35,429 nucleotides of DNA, taken from positions 2,793,289 to 2,828,717 of the forward strand of contig CP070833.1 of assembly GCA_020341735.1 (NCBI GenBank). The letters are read 5' to 3'. The notes below the pieces were generated by a model. The model made no database searches. It saw only the letters and a list, made by a program, of their open reading frames with translations, and was not told the origin of the DNA. This document shows, piece after piece, positions 16,041-34,357 of the stretch. The position numbers were made by a program, and so were the translations under genes. Position 1 is the first letter of the stretch, and each line of letters opens with the position of its first letter. The DNA is from Gammaproteobacteria bacterium. Lineage in GTDB: Bacteria > Pseudomonadota > Gammaproteobacteria > Steroidobacterales > XN24.

Positions 16041-16979
16041 TCAGCCGATCGCAAACGGGGCTAGCTGGTCGATGCCGCTCTCCGTGGTGTCCCTGCCCAG
16101 GAAAACGTGCTGTCGGTGATAATCCAGGTAAGGAAGATGCTCTTCTTTAAGATGTTCCAGCCATCCCTTTCGTCGAAGTCCCACCAGGTCCCACTGGAAA
16201 GAGCTGATGGCTGAACTCAGGATCAGTCCGCCCGTATTGTCGAATGAGATCAGTCCGTTGGAGAATGCGGCGTCGTAAAGCGGCGACAACAGCAACCCGT
16301 TGTAGGGATCCAGCCGCTCTTCGTTGTTAGAGTCCCGCCAGGGTTTAATGTGTCTCGCCCGAAGGAGTTCGGCCATTGTGCTGCGGCTGATCGCACACTG
16401 GCCTTCCCAGAGCCTGAACACGCTCTTCCGGAACTGCCCCATCCCGAGGCGGCTACCGGCGAGGTCGCGACGCTCCTCCATGTCCTTACCGCTGAACAGC
16501 ACTACGGCTGAGATTGCCTCGTCGCCGGTCTGCCCAACCGGGCTGCCGATGTAATCCAGCAGCAGGCGCCCGGCGCGGCCGCCCAACGCGAACAGGTAGC
16601 CTTGATAGTCGCTGCCGTCGGGGTAGAGCGGAGAATGTTTTCCAGGCAGGTAGGGCGCCAGCATCTCTCGGACGCCGTCAAGGGTCAGAGGGGGCACGAC
16701 GTCCCTGTAGTTGAGATCGATCTTGACGCCGTCCCGGGTGCTCTCGGGGAACTCCAGCCCCGTGGGGCGGACGGCGTCATAGGGTTCCGACCGGGCGATG
16801 GATACTGCCGGAAACGCTCTATGAGCGTACGAGAAAATCACGTCGCCCGGCCGGACGTCTGCCATGTTCCGCCAGTGAAAGTAGCTCTGGCGGGACGCAT
16901 TGTGTTTCGGCGCCCATAGGTAGTGCCCCTGACGCTGATGCCCGTGCATTTCGCCCTGGCTAACCCACCAATAGGCCAT
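16041..16979 (-). CDS. Probable EVE-HNH modification-dependent restriction endonuclease
   Basis: This 312-residue protein has an N-terminal EVE-like (PUA superfamily) domain, about 1-95, beginning MAYWWVSQGE and with MADVRPGDVIFSYAH. The C-terminal HNH nuclease domain (HNH_2, PF13391 type) spans about 180-250 and carries C195, H210 in RARHIKPW, N227 in YNGLLLSP and D236. EVE domains read modified bases such as 5-methyl- or 5-hydroxymethylcytosine. EVE-HNH proteins such as VcaM4I cut modified DNA, so the likely role is type IV-style defence against phage with modified genomes. No methyltransferase or other defence gene is adjacent. The usual Asp in the F-D-x-x-L/I-I-S-F segment is replaced by S240 (AFSNGLISF). 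The EVE assignment rests on pattern recall. Confidence 0.78.
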   Translation of the reverse strand: MAYWWVSQGEMHGHQRQGHYLWAPKHNASRQSYFHWRNMADVRPGDVIFSYAHRAFPAVSIARSEPYDAVRPTGLEFPESTRDGVKIDLNYRDVVPPLTLDGVREMLAPYLPGKHSPLYPDGSDYQGYLFALGGRAGRLLLDYIGSPVGQTGDEAISAVVLFSGKDMEERRDLAGSRLGMGQFRKSVFRLWEGQCAISRSTMAELLRARHIKPWRDSNNEERLDPYNGLLLSPLYDAAFSNGLISFDNTGGLILSSAISSFQWDLVGLRRKGWLEHLKEEHLPYLDYHRQHVFLGRDTTESGIDQLAPFAIG

Positions 16980-21549: not shown

Positions 21550-23427
21550 CTAGTCAACTGATCGCGGAATCCACTCCGGTACAGTGAACTCGATCGCGTC
21601 CAGCCGCGTCGCCGACATGTTCATCCTCGCCCGAAACGCGTCCCAGCGCGGATCGTCGTGCAGGTTCCGCCAGATCGGTAGGTACATGATGCGGTGGAAC
21701 CAGTACCCCTGCAGGCCGTAACGCTCGTCCATTGAATAGGCTGTCTCCAGCCATTGGAACGCCGCGTCGATCTGCCCGGTCCAGGCGTAGGCCTCGGCGA
21801 CGAGGTAAGCCTGGTCGCGGAACCGATCCTCGATCTGCGCCACGACCCGATTTAGCGCCGCCGCGGATGCTTCCTGTCGCCCGAGGTCGTGCATGATCAT
21901 GGCGCGGGCGGCGGTCGGCTGCGGATGATCCACCATGTCTTCCGGGAACGACTCGAGTTCCGCGAGCGCCGCCTCCGGGTCCCCCTGAAGCAGCAGGCTC
22001 AGCATAAGATAGTAGGCGTTTCCCGGATTACCCGTCACCACTTGCGTTCTGCGATGGGCCTTGACCGCCTCCTCGAATCGACCGCCCCAAAGGTACGACT
22101 GGGCCAGGTGAAAATGGCAGCCCGCGTTCTTCGGGTCGGCGGCCACACAGCGCTCGAGAAGCGCGATCGATTCAGCGTGTCGACCGATGGAGCGTGCGAA
22201 TATCCCCGCGGCCCTCGTTAGCTCCAGGTCACCCGGCGCCGTGCGGAGAGCATCCGAGAACTGATTCGCCGCCGACTCCAGGTCGAATCTGGCCTCCCAG
22301 GCGTCCCACGCCAGTCCCGCGAGAGCGGTCCCGTTGCCCGGGTCGATGGCCAGCACACGTTCGATCATCGCATCGGCGTGACGGTCCTGTTCCTCGTCGC
22401 TGATCAGTCCCAGCCTCAAGAGGCTGTAGCTGGAATAGGCTGATAGCAGCAGCGCTGGCACGTACTCGGGGTCGATTGCCAGTGCCTGGTCGAGCAGTTC
22501 GAACGCTTGCTTGTCGGCGTCATCACCCTTGCCCCAGGCGTTCATCAGGTACCTTGCTTGCAGCGTCAGGTCATAGACCTCCGGATCGGTCCTGAGACTC
22601 GCCTGCTCGAGCCGCTCGAACTCGATGGTCAGCCTGTCAAAGACCGTCAGGGCGATCTCGTCCCGGGTTTCGAAGACGTCGGCCAGGGTGCGGTCGAAGG
22701 TCTCCGACCACAGGTTAGTGTCCGTTCGCGTGTCGGTGAGCTGCACCGAGATGCGCACCCGGTCGCCGGCCTTGCTGACGGCACCGTCGAGCACGTGGGC
22801 GACGTTCAGGGCCTCCCCGATCTCGGGGATCGTTGCGTCCTTGCCCTTGAAAGAGAAGGCCGAGGTCCTGCCGGTCACCCGGAGCGCCGGCACGTTGCCG
22901 AGCTGGTTGATGAGGTCCACCGCGAGCCCCTCGGCGAAATACGCCTGGTCGCTGCCGGGAGACAGGTCCTGGAATGCCAGGACGGCGACGGAGGCATCCC
23001 GGACCTCTTCCCTGGCCTCGATGCGACCTTCCTCTCTGGCCTGTTCCACCGCGGTGGCCAACTGCTCCGCATCCCGGGCCGGATCCAGTACGAACTTGTC
23101 GAGTGCGAAGAGCCCTAGCGCCAGGGCGAGCGCCACGATGAATAGCCGATCCAGTCGCCGGGTCATCCGCCGGCTGACCGCCGAGTCGTGATCGACCTCG
23201 GCCTCGCGCTTGAAACCCTCGGGCGTCAGTTCGAACGCCCAGGCCGAGATGAGTGCGGGGACAAAACCGATAGCGAGGACGATAACAACGACGCGGATGG
23301 CGGCGTCGCTCAACTCGAAAACCGGGAACAGAGTTTCTACGACCTGAATGATCAGCCAAGAAACAGCCACGTAGGCCGCGCCTACGCGGAAGACGTTGCG
23401 ACGTTTAAGTTCAGCGAAGACTGACAA
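21550..23427 (-). CDS. TolB-like/TPR membrane protein with ELKRRNV N-terminus (paralogue 1)
   Basis: This 625-residue protein starts with FAELKRRNVFRVGAAYVAVS. Three membrane helices follow (about 17-33, 43-65 and 92-110), with the family motif FELTPEGFKREAEVD between the second and third. A TolB N-terminal/FlgO-like domain spans about 140-270 (VAVLAFQDLSPGSDQAYFAE, RTSAFSFKG, GAVSKAGDRVRISVQLTDT). Tetratricopeptide-like repeats occupy about 290-600. Similar proteins often sit behind adenylate cyclase or winged-helix domains, but this one has neither. It is probably an envelope scaffold or signalling protein. The start is TTG at 23427, supported by the fixed family N-terminus and AGGAAG just upstream. 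A second copy is at 32406-34271. Confidence 0.88.
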   Translation of the reverse strand: MSVFAELKRRNVFRVGAAYVAVSWLIIQVVETLFPVFELSDAAIRVVVIVLAIGFVPALISAWAFELTPEGFKREAEVDHDSAVSRRMTRRLDRLFIVALALALGLFALDKFVLDPARDAEQLATAVEQAREEGRIEAREEVRDASVAVLAFQDLSPGSDQAYFAEGLAVDLINQLGNVPALRVTGRTSAFSFKGKDATIPEIGEALNVAHVLDGAVSKAGDRVRISVQLTDTRTDTNLWSETFDRTLADVFETRDEIALTVFDRLTIEFERLEQASLRTDPEVYDLTLQARYLMNAWGKGDDADKQAFELLDQALAIDPEYVPALLLSAYSSYSLLRLGLISDEEQDRHADAMIERVLAIDPGNGTALAGLAWDAWEARFDLESAANQFSDALRTAPGDLELTRAAGIFARSIGRHAESIALLERCVAADPKNAGCHFHLAQSYLWGGRFEEAVKAHRRTQVVTGNPGNAYYLMLSLLLQGDPEAALAELESFPEDMVDHPQPTAARAMIMHDLGRQEASAAALNRVVAQIEDRFRDQAYLVAEAYAWTGQIDAAFQWLETAYSMDERYGLQGYWFHRIMYLPIWRNLHDDPRWDAFRARMNMSATRLDAIEFTVPEWIPRSVD

Positions 23428-23563
23428 TTGTCTTCCTATCGGCTGCTCTCCGCCCTATAAATCATGGGGCATTAAGCGGGGATTGTCGATCCGGGGCAGA
23501 ATGCGATCTTCGCTTGGCGGGAGAGGGTGCCCCGGAGCAGATTGGTGTGCGAACATTGCGACG

Positions 23564-24703
23564 ATGACCTCAGAACAAGCTTCTGCACTCACGGCTCGGC
23601 GACGCTACGCGAGCATCGACTGGATGCGCGGCATCGTCATGCTGCTGATGGTCGTCGATCATGCCTCGCTGGCCTTCAATGGCAACCGCTTCGCGCTGGA
23701 TTCCGCAGGCTCCTGGACGCCGGGGACCGCACTCCCGCCGCTGGAGTTCAGCGTCCGCTGGCTGACCCATCTGTGCGCGCCGACTTTCGTCTTTCTCGCC
23801 GGTACCGCTCTGGCAATCATGGTCGAGCGGCGGCTCGCCAAGGGGATGGACCCGGGCCAGGTGGATCGCGACATCGTGATCCGTGGTGTCATCATCCTGC
23901 TGGTAGACCCGGTCCTGATCTCGTTCGGGGTGCGTCAGTTAACTTTCCAGGTGATGTACGCCATAGGTGCGGCGATGATCCTGATGGCTTTGCTCCGCAA
24001 GCTGCCGTCCAGCGCCCTGGTGGCGCTCTCACTGGCGTGGATCGTGTTGGGAGAAATTCCGACCGGGATGATGTGGGATCCAACCCAGGGATCGTCCAGT
24101 ATCCCGGCGGCCTTCGTCACGGCGTGGTACCTGACGCCCGATCTCAAAGTGCTGTATCCGCTGTTCCCCTGGCTCGCCATGATGATGCTGGGCTGGGTTT
24201 TCGGCCGTCATCTGCTCGATGCAAGAGAGGGCAAGGCGCGTGTCAGCCCGGCGGTTACGATGCTGATCTGGGGCGGAATCGCGCTGAGCGTTTTCCTTGT
24301 TGTCCGCTACGCGAACGTTTACGGCAACATGTTCCTCTACCGTGAGGGCGTGTCGATACTGCAGTGGCTGCACGTGAGCAAGTACCCGCCGTCGTTATCG
24401 TTCATGGGCCTGGAACTGGGCGTCTTGTTCGTCACGCTCGGGGTTCTGATGCTGATCGAGCCGCTGGTCACGATTCGCCAGAACGGCGCGCTGCTGGTAT
24501 TCGGTCAGACCGCGTTCTTCTTCTATGTCGTCCACCGATTTGTCTTCGATGTCTCGGCTCACTGGTTTGGGCTACAGGGTTTCGGTGACCTCACCACGAC
24601 AATGATCGTGTCGCTGCTCATGCTTGTCGCGCTGTATCCGTGCTGCCTGTGGTATCGCTCGTACAAGAGAGCACACCCGGATAGCGTGCTCCGATTTTTC
24701 TGA
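23564..24703 (+). CDS. DUF1624/heparan-alpha-glucosaminide N-acetyltransferase-like membrane protein
   Basis: This 379-residue polytopic protein has about ten helices. The family signature RYASIDWMRGIVMLLMVVDH is at residues 14-33, with the conserved Asp-x-x-R-G and D-H residues. LTHLCAPTFVFLAGTALAI and FPWLAMMMLGWVFGR are also typical of the HGSNAT/DUF1624 acyltransferase-like family. Members are thought to transfer acyl groups across the membrane to sugars or other acceptors; the acceptor here is unknown. The ATG at 23564 is chosen because the conserved region starts shortly after it. The longer frame back to 23396 overlaps the start of the TPR gene and adds no recognisable sequence. Confidence 0.88.
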   Translation: MTSEQASALTARRRYASIDWMRGIVMLLMVVDHASLAFNGNRFALDSAGSWTPGTALPPLEFSVRWLTHLCAPTFVFLAGTALAIMVERRLAKGMDPGQVDRDIVIRGVIILLVDPVLISFGVRQLTFQVMYAIGAAMILMALLRKLPSSALVALSLAWIVLGEIPTGMMWDPTQGSSSIPAAFVTAWYLTPDLKVLYPLFPWLAMMMLGWVFGRHLLDAREGKARVSPAVTMLIWGGIALSVFLVVRYANVYGNMFLYREGVSILQWLHVSKYPPSLSFMGLELGVLFVTLGVLMLIEPLVTIRQNGALLVFGQTAFFFYVVHRFVFDVSAHWFGLQGFGDLTTTMIVSLLMLVALYPCCLWYRSYKRAHPDSVLRFF

Positions 24704-24870
24704 GGCGAGATCACATATCCGACTGCGGATACTGCAGCTGGGGGCCATCCTGTCACTGGTCTCGCTATTCGAAGAGATGCTCCCGAAGTCCACGACCACT
24801 CCCGGGGGAACATCAACTGGCGATGGCAGGTCAGAAAATAGCAGGCACGAAGCAAGTTGGGGAAATCGCG

Positions 24871-25779
24871 ATGGTGGGAAAAACAGCTCTTATAACAGTC
24901 ATGGCGGCGATCCTGGCTACGGCAGGGCGGGCACAGGATTCACTTTTAGAGGACGCGGAGGATAGCCCGGGAAATCCGTTAGAACAGGTGTTGCAGGCTG
25001 AAACGGTCAATGAGTCCCCGGAGCTGTTGTCCGGATTTAAAGATGCGTTTGTCACGCTCGCGGTGACGCCACGTTATCCGAAGCGAGCTTTGAGGAAGAA
25101 AATCGACGGAGAGGTGACGCTGGAATTCGATATCAGCAAACATGGTCGTGCGGAGAACATTACTGTGGTGGCTGAGAGCCCGCCCGGCGTATTCAAAAAG
25201 GAGGCCGCAGATGCGTTGCAGTACTGGGCCTTTTCGCCTGCCCGACTTGCCACTTGCGGCACCCTTGCTCAAAGAGCCCGCCAGACATTGCGATTCGATC
25301 ACGGCGGCGATCCGCAGATCCGGTTCGCCCCACTTATGATCAATGATATTCCACAGCCCCCGCAAGCAATGGAAGAGACAACGCTACAGCGGTTCCGGCA
25401 GGAGCAGGTCTGGGCTCGGCAAGCGAGCGGGATATTTGACTCGAGAAATTTTGTTACGACCAAAAGGGTGGAGCCGGATTACCCGCTAAAGGCTTTGGAG
25501 CGGCGGAAAGAAGGCATGGTTGCTATCGCGTTCATCATCGAGACTGACGGCAGCGTAGCCGATGTTGAAGTTGTTGATTCTGTCGCCGCGACATATTTCC
25601 AGCGGTCCTCGCTAACGGCGATCCGCCAGTGGACATTCAGACCGAAACTTCGCGACGGTAAACCGATCGCTTCAGCCGCGTGCCATGAGTTCATCTTCCA
25701 TGCTGACGAGTACGCGCGATCCGGCAAACTCTCGCGTGCCCGGGAAGACGCGAATATCCGCACCTACACAGTGGACTAA
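24871..25779 (+). CDS. Exported protein with two TonB C-terminal domains
   Basis: This 302-residue protein has a signal peptide (1-21, ending TAGRA before QDS) and two TonB C-terminal domains. One is at about 62-142 (TPRYPKRALRKKIDGEVTLE, ending W-A-F-S-P-A). The other is at 197-277 (VEPDYPLKALERRKEGMVAI, ending W-T-F-R-P-K). The domains match energy transducer TonB C-termini. However, there is no uncleaved N-terminal helix and no proline-rich spacer, so it is unlikely to couple to ExbB/ExbD as a normal TonB. A free periplasmic TonB-domain protein is more likely. The ATG at 24871 has GGGGAA about 7 bases upstream; an ATG at 24823 is in frame but lacks a site. The gene looks somewhat more AT-rich than its neighbours. 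Confidence 0.86.
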   Translation: MVGKTALITVMAAILATAGRAQDSLLEDAEDSPGNPLEQVLQAETVNESPELLSGFKDAFVTLAVTPRYPKRALRKKIDGEVTLEFDISKHGRAENITVVAESPPGVFKKEAADALQYWAFSPARLATCGTLAQRARQTLRFDHGGDPQIRFAPLMINDIPQPPQAMEETTLQRFRQEQVWARQASGIFDSRNFVTTKRVEPDYPLKALERRKEGMVAIAFIIETDGSVADVEVVDSVAATYFQRSSLTAIRQWTFRPKLRDGKPIASAACHEFIFHADEYARSGKLSRAREDANIRTYTVD

Positions 25780-25885: not shown

Positions 25886-26998
25886 TCAGCCCGGGGCCGT
25901 CAACACGACTATGGCTATCAGCGTGGCGTAGCTGAGCGGGAAAACCCATCGGGCAGCGCGATCGATACTGTGCGCCCGCTCAGGATTGTCCGCCTGATAG
26001 CGGGACACGATGTAACTCTCCAGCACGGTGACGCCCAGCAGCAGGAAGCTGATCACCATGATCTTGTCCATCAGGGTGAGATAACCGACGCGTGGCAGGT
26101 TCTGGGAGGCGACAAACTGGTACGCGACGATGGTGAGAATACCGGTCGCAGACGTGCGTACCCGGATGCCGAACTTCTCGTCGAGCATCCAGAAGATGGA
26201 CCAGGACAGGGCGACGATGATGAGCAGGGGAAGCATTACCTTCCACAGATAGAAGCCCGACTTGCGTTCGATGTCGATGGTCAGCACGAACTGGGAGAAG
26301 GGCTTGGTGCTGCGAATCACGTCGACCCGCTCCTCGTGTGCGTGGACTCCGGTGATCGTCCACTCGGGAATTTCAAAGTCCTCCGCAAAACCCGTCTTCG
26401 AGGCATCGGCGACCATGACCACCTGTTCGGCATCCCAGGTGAACGACTGGATCTCCAGCGTCAGTTGCTGGCTGTCGAAGGGGAATCGTCGCAGGTTGAA
26501 GTTGGCAGACAACCGGACACTGATATTGAGATCGCCGCTCACCGTGCCGTCGGCTTGGACCCGTATCACCCGCTCAGTGATCTTGAGCTCGTCCACCTGG
26601 TTGACCGGAAACCCCCTGGCCGTCCAACCCTGGTCGATTTGTTCTGCCGCCTCCGGTCCATAGAAGACTTTCTCATCGACACCTTCGACGCGAGGGTCGA
26701 AAGCATGTCTGGGATCGCACCAGCTTACGGTGACAATGCCACGGAACTGATACGAGGACTGGACCGGGTCGATGTCCCGCAACTCGTCCACGAACAGCCC
26801 GGCGCGGACCTCCGTGGGACCGTTGTTGTTGGGCGGTGTCTTCAGGTCGACCTCAGACGAGCGCGGGGCTATCGACAGCGGCTCACCGCTGCAGGTCACC
26901 GGTGCAGCAGCCGCTGAGGCGGGCAGTGCCGCCAGGCCGTAGATGACCACGATCGAGGCGAGCGAGAGAAATCCGGACAAACGCGATAAAACAAGCAT
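25886..26998 (-). CDS. Pentameric ligand-gated ion channel homologue (prokaryotic Cys-loop receptor family, ELIC/GLIC-like)
   Basis: This 370-residue protein has a signal peptide (ending PASA), a beta-rich extracellular ligand-binding domain (about 40-248) and four membrane helices. M1 begins GFYLWKVMLPLLIIVALSWS. M2 is about 281-300 (RTSATGILTIVAYQFVASQ) followed by NLPRVGYLTLMDK. M3 follows, and M4 runs to near the C-terminus. The Cys-loop region reads NLRRFPFDSQQL without the flanking disulfide cysteines, as in GLIC and ELIC. The M1 tryptophan motif and the L-P after M2 are pLGIC hallmarks. It should form a homopentameric channel gated by an unknown ligand or protons. The ATG at 26998 is chosen over the GTG at 27007 because GAGGT has 9-base spacing. 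Confidence 0.9.
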   Translation of the reverse strand: MLVLSRLSGFLSLASIVVIYGLAALPASAAAAPVTCSGEPLSIAPRSSEVDLKTPPNNNGPTEVRAGLFVDELRDIDPVQSSYQFRGIVTVSWCDPRHAFDPRVEGVDEKVFYGPEAAEQIDQGWTARGFPVNQVDELKITERVIRVQADGTVSGDLNISVRLSANFNLRRFPFDSQQLTLEIQSFTWDAEQVVMVADASKTGFAEDFEIPEWTITGVHAHEERVDVIRSTKPFSQFVLTIDIERKSGFYLWKVMLPLLIIVALSWSIFWMLDEKFGIRVRTSATGILTIVAYQFVASQNLPRVGYLTLMDKIMVISFLLLGVTVLESYIVSRYQADNPERAHSIDRAARWVFPLSYATLIAIVVLTAPG

Positions 26999-27146
26999 CC
27001 TTGGCACACCTCAGCGAGCGACTGATACGGTGGTATTGGGATCGGCCGCTATCTTACGCGGTTATCATGGATTCGGCGAAGCCCTCCAGGGCGGCGCAGC
27101 CTGCCCCTGCACCGCTACAGACAACGTTGTCCCCGAAGATCTGAAC

Positions 27147-28481
27147 ATGCCGCCGACGAGTGACCGAATCGCTACCCCGTTGCTGATAATCTTTGGGCTC
27201 GTCAATTTGCCGCTGTCCATGCTCTTGTCGCCGACGGCGGCCATGCTGCCGAATTTCTATCTCGAGTACAGCGCCGTCACCCTGGCGGGCCTCGCGACCG
27301 CCACGCTTGTGGCGCGGCTGTTCGATGGCATTACCGACCCGCTTATCGGCTACCTGTCTGACCGGGCCGGAAACCGCAAGCCGTGGATGATTGGCGGGGC
27401 GCTGCTGGTCTCTGCCAGCGCGTGGTTCTTGTACAACCCAGGCCCGGACACCGGTCTGATGCACCTGCTTGTCTGGTACCTCGCCGTCACTCTGGGGTGG
27501 ACGCTTGTGGAAATCCCGCATACGGCCATGGCGGCGGAATTGTCCGGCGGCTATCACGAACGGTCTCGGATCGCGCTCTACCGGCAGTTCCTTGGCTTTG
27601 TGGGTGGCATCCTGTTCATGGCCTCCCCGATGTTGTTGGTAGGCGGCACGACCGCATTCACGCCGGATGTCTTCCGGGTGTTGTCCATGTTCATCATGGT
27701 CGCGTTGCCCTTGACCGTCATACTCATGTGCAGGCTGGTCCCGGAGCCGCGGCGCGGGCTGCGGACCGTGAAGGTTCGGCCGGGCGACCTGTGGCTGGCG
27801 CTGAAACACACGCCGCCGCTGCAGTACTTTCTCGTCACGCAGGTTCTGTTCGGCCTGGCCACGGGCGCGGTCATGAGCCTGTTCGTGATCTTTGCCAGTC
27901 AATACCTGGGACTGGCCGAGAACATTCCCCATATCGCCATGCCCATGACCCTGGCGATGGCGCTGGGGATGCCGCTGTGGTTGCAAGTGATGAAGCGCGT
28001 AGACAAGCACCGCGCGTGGGCCGCGGCTGGCGTGGGCATGATCGCGACTCTGGGATGTGTCTTGCTACTAGAGCCGGGGACCGGCGCCTTGATACCGATG
28101 ATCACGGTCATGTCCGCTTTCGGATTTTTCCTGGGGCTTTCATCGATCGCGCTGCCGTCGTTGCTGGCAGACTTGGTGGACTACGACATATGGAAGAATG
28201 GCAAGGATCGAGCCGCTATCTTCTTTTCCTTCCAGGCGCTGGTAACAAAACTCAACCAGGGCGTCGGTGGTGCGATCGCGCTGTTCATTCCCACTCTGTT
28301 CGGGTTCTCTGGCAAGGGTGAGCTGACCTCGCCGGCGGTGCTGGGCCTCAAGACCGCGTTTGTGGGCTGGCCGTGTCTGCTGCTGCTGCCCATGATTTGG
28401 CTGGCCTGGCGCTATCCATTAGACCGCCGGGCGCACAGCATACTGGCTCGTCGGCTCGGGTCCCGACCCGCCGGCCGATAG
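27147..28481 (+). CDS. GPH/MelB-type sugar or glycoside:cation symporter (MFS_2)
   Basis: This 444-residue transporter has about twelve membrane helices. GPH signatures are present: LFDGITDPLIGYLSDRAGNR with the D-x-x-x-D-P pattern in the first half and R-K-P-W following, then VEIPHTAMAAELS, and SLLADLVDYDIWKNGKDRAA in the second half. These place it in the glycoside-pentoside-hexuronide:cation symporter family (PF13347). The substrate could be a sugar or glycoside; no sugar-utilisation gene is nearby to indicate which. The ATG at 27147 is chosen since the upstream frame is non-hydrophobic and unlike the family. It is divergent from the pLGIC gene across 148 bases. Confidence 0.9.
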   Translation: MPPTSDRIATPLLIIFGLVNLPLSMLLSPTAAMLPNFYLEYSAVTLAGLATATLVARLFDGITDPLIGYLSDRAGNRKPWMIGGALLVSASAWFLYNPGPDTGLMHLLVWYLAVTLGWTLVEIPHTAMAAELSGGYHERSRIALYRQFLGFVGGILFMASPMLLVGGTTAFTPDVFRVLSMFIMVALPLTVILMCRLVPEPRRGLRTVKVRPGDLWLALKHTPPLQYFLVTQVLFGLATGAVMSLFVIFASQYLGLAENIPHIAMPMTLAMALGMPLWLQVMKRVDKHRAWAAAGVGMIATLGCVLLLEPGTGALIPMITVMSAFGFFLGLSSIALPSLLADLVDYDIWKNGKDRAAIFFSFQALVTKLNQGVGGAIALFIPTLFGFSGKGELTSPAVLGLKTAFVGWPCLLLLPMIWLAWRYPLDRRAHSILARRLGSRPAGR

Positions 28482-32405: not shown

Positions 32406-34271
32406 CTAGGGCTGCGGGGGATTCCTGATCACCGTCGGTGGCGGCCAGTCGAATCCGGCCTCTTCGAGCCGCTGGCGGAACACGGGCGTCGCCTCCAGGT
32501 CGAAGGGCGCGCCGCACATGCACTCCATGGTCGCCGCCGCCAGCATCGTTTGCCCCGCGGGCAGAGCATCGACCCACGCCGCCGCTTCGTTAGCCGCCTC
32601 TCGATCGCCGACAATCGCGTAGAGCTCGATGGCGATATATCGCTTCAGCCATGGACTGATCCCGTCCAGAGCGATATCTACCTGCTTCCTGGCCTGCCCC
32701 ATATCGCCGATGGCAACGCTCGCGGAAACCAGCATCGTGTCCCGGTTCCAGGCGGTCGTCGAGGCCGCGGTGTCGTAAGCCTCTTGCGGTCTGTTGAGCG
32801 CGATCAGGGCACCGACCAGCAGCGCCCTCAGGAACGGGTTGTCGGGCTCAATCTCCAGTCCCCTGTGCACGAGCGCCAGCGCCTCATCCGGCTTGCCGGC
32901 CCACATCGCGGCCTGCGCGGCCGAGTAGAAGTTGTAGAAGTTCAGGGGATCACACTCTATCAACCGGTTCCTGTAGACCAGAGACTGCGCTGCGAAGCCG
33001 AATGCCGGCGCCACCTCCAGCCACACCGGGTCGGCACAGCTGCTGGACTCCAGAGCCGTCTCGAATCGATCCGGCAGAGATCTCCAATTGGTCGAGGCCA
33101 GGGTGCGGTCTACTTCGATCAAGGCGCGTTCGCCCGGGTCCGACGTGTACTCGCTAGCCGCCGAGAGGTCGCGCAGATAGCTCGCGTATGCAGCCTGACG
33201 TTGCTCATCCGTGGCTTCATAGGTAGTTGTGGAGTGAGCATAGAAGTCGCTGCGGATGAAGTAGGCGCTCGCGAATCGCGGCTCAAGACCGATGGCCTTG
33301 GTCAACCACTCGGCGGATTCGGCCAGCATGCCCATATCCACCTCGTTGGAATGGGCTTGGATATACATGGCTCGACCTTTCTGAAAGGCGATGAAGGCCT
33401 CGACGTCGCGGACGCCGGCAGCCAGCATCCGCTGGCGCTGCGCCTCGTCCATGACCACTCCCAGGGCGCGGGTGACGCTCTCGGCAATATCGGTCTGGAC
33501 CTCGAAGACGTCTTCAAGCGTGCGGTCGTAGCTCTCCGACCACAGGTGGTAGCCATCCGAGGTGCGGATGAGCTGAGCCGTGATGCGGGCCCGGTCGCCA
33601 GCTCGGCGGACGCTACCCTCGAGCAGATGAGCGACATTCAACGCAGACCCGACCTCTCTGAGGTCTGCCGTTTTATCCTTGAACTGGAACGAAGAGGTGC
33701 GCGCTGTCACCTGCAGATCGGGAACGCCTGCCAGGAAGTTAAGGATCTCCTCGGACAAGCCGTCGGCGAAGTACTCGTTCTCTTCGTCGCCGCTCATGTT
33801 GACGAACGGCAGCACGGCAATAGATCGATCCGGCGGCGGCGCGAATTTCTCGGCCACCAGGGCGCTCGGATCGGCGGTCGCCTCGGGTTCGGCGGATTCC
33901 ATGACCGGCTCTGCCGGCGCGGGCGCCTCCGGGATCAGGCGATCGACCACCACGACGCCGATCGCCAGGACGAGCAGGACGATGATCAATACGTTGATTT
34001 TCCTGCCCGTGTGCGCCGTCACGGACGCCGAGCGATCGATGTCACGTTCCCGCTTCAGACCCTCGGGGGTCATTTCGAAGACCCATGAGAAAATGAGTGC
34101 CAGCGGGAAGCCGAGTATCAGCAGGGCGAGCACCAGCCGGAGCCCCGACGACGGTAGCTCCATCGCCTCGAACAGCACGTCGGCCACCTGAAGCAACAAC
34201 CAGCTGGCCACCACATAGAGCATGGCGACCTTGATGACGTTGCGCCGCTTGAGTTCGTCGAGAAAGGGCAT
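32406..34271 (-). CDS. TolB-like/TPR membrane protein with ELKRRNV N-terminus (paralogue 2)
   Basis: This 621-residue protein has the same architecture as the protein at 21550-23427. It starts MPFLDELKRRNVIKVAMLYV, has membrane helices at about 17-36, 45-65 and 88-107, and the motif FEMTPEGLKRERDID. A TolB/FlgO-like domain (about 150-270) carries IAVLPFVNMSGDEENEYFAD, RTSSFQFKD, GSVRRAGDRARITAQL and HLWSESYDRTLEDVFE. The C-terminal half is helical with weak TPR-like repeats and several cysteines (MECMCGAPF near the end). The ATG at 34271 is preferred over the ATG at 34307 because it matches the family start; AGGAGAG lies about 13 bases upstream. The periplasmic or cytoplasmic partner is unknown. 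Confidence 0.88.
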   Translation of the reverse strand: MPFLDELKRRNVIKVAMLYVVASWLLLQVADVLFEAMELPSSGLRLVLALLILGFPLALIFSWVFEMTPEGLKRERDIDRSASVTAHTGRKINVLIIVLLVLAIGVVVVDRLIPEAPAPAEPVMESAEPEATADPSALVAEKFAPPPDRSIAVLPFVNMSGDEENEYFADGLSEEILNFLAGVPDLQVTARTSSFQFKDKTADLREVGSALNVAHLLEGSVRRAGDRARITAQLIRTSDGYHLWSESYDRTLEDVFEVQTDIAESVTRALGVVMDEAQRQRMLAAGVRDVEAFIAFQKGRAMYIQAHSNEVDMGMLAESAEWLTKAIGLEPRFASAYFIRSDFYAHSTTTYEATDEQRQAAYASYLRDLSAASEYTSDPGERALIEVDRTLASTNWRSLPDRFETALESSSCADPVWLEVAPAFGFAAQSLVYRNRLIECDPLNFYNFYSAAQAAMWAGKPDEALALVHRGLEIEPDNPFLRALLVGALIALNRPQEAYDTAASTTAWNRDTMLVSASVAIGDMGQARKQVDIALDGISPWLKRYIAIELYAIVGDREAANEAAAWVDALPAGQTMLAAATMECMCGAPFDLEATPVFRQRLEEAGFDWPPPTVIRNPPQP

Positions 34272-34357
34272 TTTTTGGCGTTGGCTCTCCTCAGGTGCGC
34301 CGATCATGAAACAACGACAGTGATTTGTCGATCAGAAGTCCGCGCGCCTGCGCGTCT

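Follow-up and report, generated by a model that had tools for sequence, protein, structure and literature searches.

The window analysed here, a 35,429-nucleotide stretch of gammaproteobacterial DNA, encodes what is almost certainly a prokaryotic pentameric ligand-gated ion channel (pLGIC), related to the receptor channels of nerve cells for acetylcholine, GABA and glycine, and its pore mouth appears to carry a second ring of arginines. Judged from sequence, what is new here is an arginine at position 2' of the M2 helix together with a matching cysteine pair, both in a rare four-member group of a known channel superfamily. ELIC and GLIC, the best-studied bacterial relatives, are both cation channels. 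The protein described here may be an anion-preferring or non-cation-selective channel, and the chances of this combined reading seem evenly balanced. The original prediction, which had recognised the gene as a pLGIC homologue, overlooked Arg 2', the confinement of this residue to a single clade, and the cysteine pair. The features of the gene and its surroundings are collected in Table 1.

Table 1. Positions in the window of the channel gene, its sequence parts and the adjoining genes.
Feature	Position	Strand	Remarks
TonB-C protein	24823-25779	+	converges on channel gene
pLGIC gene	25886..26998	-	370 aa, uninterrupted ATG-to-stop frame, ATG at 26998
M3 + short linker + M4	25895..26071	-	M3 ~residues 310-336; M4 ~346-368
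M2 + M2-M3 loop	26054..26164	-	residues 279-315; gap-free alignment to ELIC
Arg281 (M2 2')	26156..26158	-	Gln in ELIC, Thr in GLIC
Arg279 (M2 0')	26162..26164	-	basic residue common to most pLGICs (PMC4795631)
M1	26189..26248	-	~residues 251-270; conserved Pro257
Extracellular ligand-binding beta-sandwich domain	26258..26815	-	~residues 62-247; PF02931 match at 55-246
Pro-loop RFPFDSQ	26468..26488	-	residues 171-177; Cys-loop equivalent without cysteines
Cys94, WCDPR motif at end of strand beta2	26717..26719	-	invariant in clade
Cys36, N-terminal extension	26891..26893	-	invariant in four-member clade; proposed partner of Cys94
Predicted signal peptide	26906..26998	-	~residues 1-31; cleavage region ASA-A, judged by eye
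Intergenic region, channel to divergent GPH symporter	26999..27143	.	145 bp
GPH/MFS_2 symporter	27144..28481	+	PF13347 2.3e-67; probably outside the system

Both Pfam profiles of the superfamily score above their curated cut-offs, which excludes a protein without any hit to the neurotransmitter-gated channel profiles. PF02931 (ligand-binding domain) matches at 2e-17 with 63.8 bits against a cut-off of 26, and PF02932 (transmembrane domain) matches from residue 255 at 1.9e-7 with 32.1 bits against 28.1; the latter match spans M1-M3, and M4 was aligned via ELIC. The best match among all solved structures is ELIC (E 2.3e-33, channel residues 59-366), a full-length homologue with an overall identity of only about 26%, and the same search gives full-length matches to GLIC and GLIC-based chains with E values of about 1e-29 to 1e-30. 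The seven most conserved residues of the superfamily comprise the F/Y-P-x-D of the Pro-loop, the beta9 Trp, the pre-M1 Arg, the M1 Pro and the M2-M3 Pro (PMC4795631), and all seven are found in the channel (F172, P173, D175, W213, R245, P257, and P302). Profiles, full-length structure alignment and hallmark residues together thus bear out the assignment to the prokaryotic pLGICs. Within this superfamily the protein is a homologue outside the narrow NF033918 and TIGR00860 subfamilies, scoring 187.9 bits for the former NCBIfam model (cut-off 500, though E is 2.7e-55) and 132.7 bits for the latter (cut-off 280.2, though E is 1.5e-38). Prokaryotic pLGICs lack the Cys-loop cysteines. The stretch R171-F-P-F-D-S-Q177, already noticed as cysteine-free, likewise has none of the two flanking cysteines of metazoan receptors, and the sole cysteines of the mature protein are C36 and C94. 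An AlphaFold2 model made from an alignment of two sequences only reproduced the expected order of strands and helices, but at a pLDDT of 38 is too poor for use, so that homology is the basis for the fold, the pentamer and the geometry of the pore.

A ribosome-binding (Shine-Dalgarno-like) motif, GAGGTG, lies 8 nt upstream of the ATG at 26998, and this start is therefore favoured over the GTG that lies further upstream (27007). The signal peptide proposed originally is plausible, given a hydrophobic N-terminus (residues 1-36) with its ASA-A region. Further hydrophobic segments lie near residues 246-276, 303-334, and 347-370, while M2 is more polar than these because of its arginines. By analogy with the family, the protein would form a homopentameric ligand-gated ion channel in the bacterial inner membrane, with the beta-sandwich domain exported to the periplasm, where a small ligand would bind to it and open a pore lined by the five M2 helices. 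We infer pentamer formation, gating and inner-membrane location from the family.

The M2-M3 block of 37 residues aligns without gaps and is nearer to ELIC (17/37 identical) than to GLIC (8/37), in agreement with the resemblance first seen by eye. The ELIC sequence used for alignment is consistent with that of the solved structure, and the GLIC sequence is assumed to be correct. Because the block is gap-free and holds 17 identities to ELIC, the prime numbering is secure, with R279 at 0' and R281 at 2'. The Glu at -1' and the Gln at 2' of ELIC correspond to Ile278 and Arg in the channel. It had been noted correctly that the residues F-G-I-R before M2 include no Glu, and an acidic ring of the ELIC type is absent from both -1' and -2', these positions being occupied by I278 and G277 in the channel and by T, M or G in its close relatives, which leaves all four clade members without an acid at either. 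GLIC, in the sequence used here, differs by Glu at -2', Asn at 0' and Thr at 2', while its beta2 motif WKDRRLAFDP is similar to WCDPRHAFDP of the channel. In animals, glycine and GABA-A receptors bear an anion signature that consists of P-A-R at -2' to 0' followed by a small residue at 2'. This metazoan motif is also absent here, with G-I-R in its place. The channel shares with those receptors the superfamily fold, a basic 0' residue and the lack of an acid at -1', but has neither Cys-loop cysteines nor P-A-R nor an intracellular domain, and differs further in having Arg instead of a small residue at 2' and a hydrophobic 13'.

Arginine at 0' is common, being present in 56 aligned sequences. 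A basic residue at 2' occurs in only four of the 67 aligned homologues that can be read at this position, namely the query and its three close relatives, in a sample drawn mostly from one phylum, so that it may occur elsewhere. The relatives are L007, from an uncultured Pseudomonadales MAG (CAKZWF010000001.1; 62% identical), L002 (57%) and L008 (39%), and all share R2', the lack of an acid at -2' and -1', and the pair C36/C94. In a tree calculated with the trait columns removed, the query and these three sequences form a single clade (support 98/94), across which Arg 2' is invariant at identities of 39-62%. The clade is not specifically grouped with ELIC; the resemblance to ELIC is a matter of the transmembrane part. 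Of these close relatives, the one at 57% comes from genome G004 (same family) and the one at 39% from G325 (same order). The gene was found in two of the seven sampled genomes of its own family, and as a single copy, without paralogues, in its own genome. A profile built from the four-sequence alignment returned no further members from the same order and class, many of whose genomes were already in the homologue search. Viral contigs and phages yielded no relatives, and plasmids only distant ones, from Azospirillum and Legionella.

At the cytoplasmic mouth of the pore, Ile stands where ELIC has its selectivity Glu (-1'), and a second ring of arginines would lie at 2', above the usual ring at 0'. 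The most likely effect would be that cation selectivity is lost and anions, for instance chloride or small organic acids, are preferred. Removal of the -1' Glu in ELIC (E229A) lets small anions pass (PMC3119659), which counts in favour of this reading; the selectivity of other pLGICs frequently changes when the charge at -1' is neutralised or reversed, though E-1'A alone produced no inversion in alpha7 experiments (PMC8011927). The lateral cation pathway of ELIC depends on acids at positions 30, 36, 113, and 158 (PMC12637682), and the four counterparts mapped in the channel, Q80, R86, N166, and P211, are neutral or basic. A glycine receptor concentrates chloride by means of basic residues in the same lateral region (PMC9565810). 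However, acidic residues outnumber basic ones in the extracellular domain (19 K/R vs. 32 D/E, with net charges from -4 to -13 across the clade), which would repel anions, and anion channels tend to have a polar upper pore (PMC8011927), whereas A13' and F16' are hydrophobic, as in the cation-selective ELIC. Owing to these two features, a weak or clear preference for anions is put at an even chance. The remark that ion selectivity may differ from that of GLIC is sensible, and Arg 2' strengthens it.

The cation reading is rather unlikely but has several points in its favour. The protein would then be a bacterial pLGIC of the usual kind, either cation-selective or of poor selectivity, with Arg281 turned from the pore axis, partly deprotonated or paired with Glu274, and with an acidic vestibule setting the cation preference as in ELIC. 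This would suit the net acidic extracellular domain and the ELIC-like hydrophobic upper pore, and also the conserved acid E274 at about -5', which is invariant in the clade and might offset the positive charge of the mouth. The -1' acid, moreover, is missing in most sampled bacterial homologues too, so its absence alone tells little. Against this reading, position 2' lines the pore in both ELIC and GLIC, the doubled arginine ring is unusual, and the lateral-pathway acids of ELIC have been replaced. As for the residues preceding M2, in prokaryotic members these are poor predictors and insufficient to assign selectivity (PMC4795631).

A third reading, which we consider improbable, is that of a receptor with little or no conduction, in which the pore is blocked by the double arginine ring, or the ring retains a bound anion or phosphate, and the protein serves as a ligand sensor or scaffold. 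With ten positive charges close together where the pore is narrowest, a multivalent anion might be bound tightly, and the patchy distribution and unconserved gene context would fit such a role. By contrast, the coupling residues (Pro-loop, R245, P257, and P302) and the gate residues T6', L9', A13', and F16', the latter identical to those of ELIC, have been kept by each of the four members, a point in favour of a functional gated pore. That the channel conducts is very probable.

Returning to the anion preference, the positive mouth is proposed to have been reached by a route other than P-A-R. The chance is somewhat short of even that the clade represents a natural bacterial anion-selective ligand-gated channel, whose selectivity would arise from arginine rings at both 0' and 2' and would owe nothing to the P-A-R motif of glycine and GABA-A receptors in animals. 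The open literature searched contained no characterised anion-selective bacterial pLGIC; according to PMC4795631, unicellular members have no known biological role and ion selectivity within the group defies prediction. If it does pass anions, the channel would differ from those bacterial members that have been studied. With its natural 2' Arg, a small single-gene homopentamer that has few cysteines would directly test how charge at the pore mouth determines ion selectivity, and would offer a simple model for anion selectivity arising outside animals.

The second trait of the clade lies in the extracellular domain. Cysteines number exactly two in each of the four mature proteins; they align with C36 and C94 and are 58-60 residues apart, and the position of C94 is not Cys in the other aligned homologues, nor is the pair found in ELIC. 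At the end of strand beta2, C94 comes directly after a conserved Trp, in a region that we take, from the family, to be the periplasmic apex of the domain, near to where the N-terminal extension should lie. The simplest reading is a structural intrasubunit disulfide, unrelated to the Cys-loop, which probably joins C36 to C94 and would pin the N-terminal extension to the extracellular domain. It is very unlikely that Cys36 is instead a lipid-anchored N-terminal cysteine, unpaired with Cys94. Its location near the predicted signal-peptide cleavage site and the lipobox-like LIAC of L002 would suit that reading, but the other three members read PVTC, PETC and ELTC, which are no lipobox, C94 is conserved along with C36, and further cysteines are absent. 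With a lipobox-like sequence in only one of four members, the lipoprotein reading was rejected.

The ligand site is conserved in part. Of the ELIC site, F19 is kept as F69, and F133 and F188 are kept as F186 and F234. Other positions of the site are changed, Y38 to Ile, E77 to Phe and E131 to Gln, the last being Glu in the three relatives. Loop C is shorter than in ELIC and has no counterpart of the aromatic Y175, while Arg229 in this loop is invariant in the clade. Given these changes, primary amines of the ELIC type are no safe guess as ligands, and acidic or zwitterionic ligands may be candidates worth testing.

Outside the clade, searching through the order, class and phylum of the query yielded about 60 more distant pLGICs, most of them at approximately 30% identity or less. 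Three from the same order, L020:1338-2424, L027, and L015, have P-A-R at -2' to 0' (PARMG, PARTG, and PARIS), with Gly at 2' in L020 and L027, and are possible further bacterial anion channels. Some homologues of the same order look broken, with a split frame or an in-match stop: L022/L030 (G327:C236), L019 and L027 (G197), and L025 (G233). In others from the same phylum (L038, L049, L051, L053, L061-L070) the pLGIC domain forms the C-terminal end of frames of ~640-780 aa, implying extra N-terminal domains.

With regard to gene neighbourhood, the GPH symporter is indeed transcribed divergently from the channel gene, as first described. A functional link between the two was rejected: in G004 the symporter orthologue is on contig C10 and the channel on C31, and the channel is missing from four genomes that do carry the symporter (G002, G003, G005, and G006). 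The MFS transporter beside the channel in G004 is a different one, with no significant similarity to the symporter of the window. A conserved operon was likewise rejected, as the neighbours are a patatin/Omp85 protein in L007, a HAD hydrolase and ArgR in L008, and a TIR-TPR protein and an MFS transporter in L002. In its behaviour the channel gene resembles an accessory gene that stands alone and is patchily distributed. In G001, of the same genus, orthologues of the TPR and TonB proteins are adjacent, and the remaining 0.8 kb of the contig contains no channel sequence. The TIR-domain and TPR protein of G004 (L077:4405-6102, + strand) is convergent with the channel gene. The window itself encodes two TPR proteins of similar size (21550-23427 and 32406-34307, both on the - strand), which are probably paralogues because a single G001 locus is matched by the two of them, at 37 and 42% identity. 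It also encodes a multi-pass acetyltransferase homologue of the HGSNAT_cat type (23396-24703, + strand; PF07786, 1.7e-16) and an HNH endonuclease-like protein (16044-16979, - strand; PF13391).
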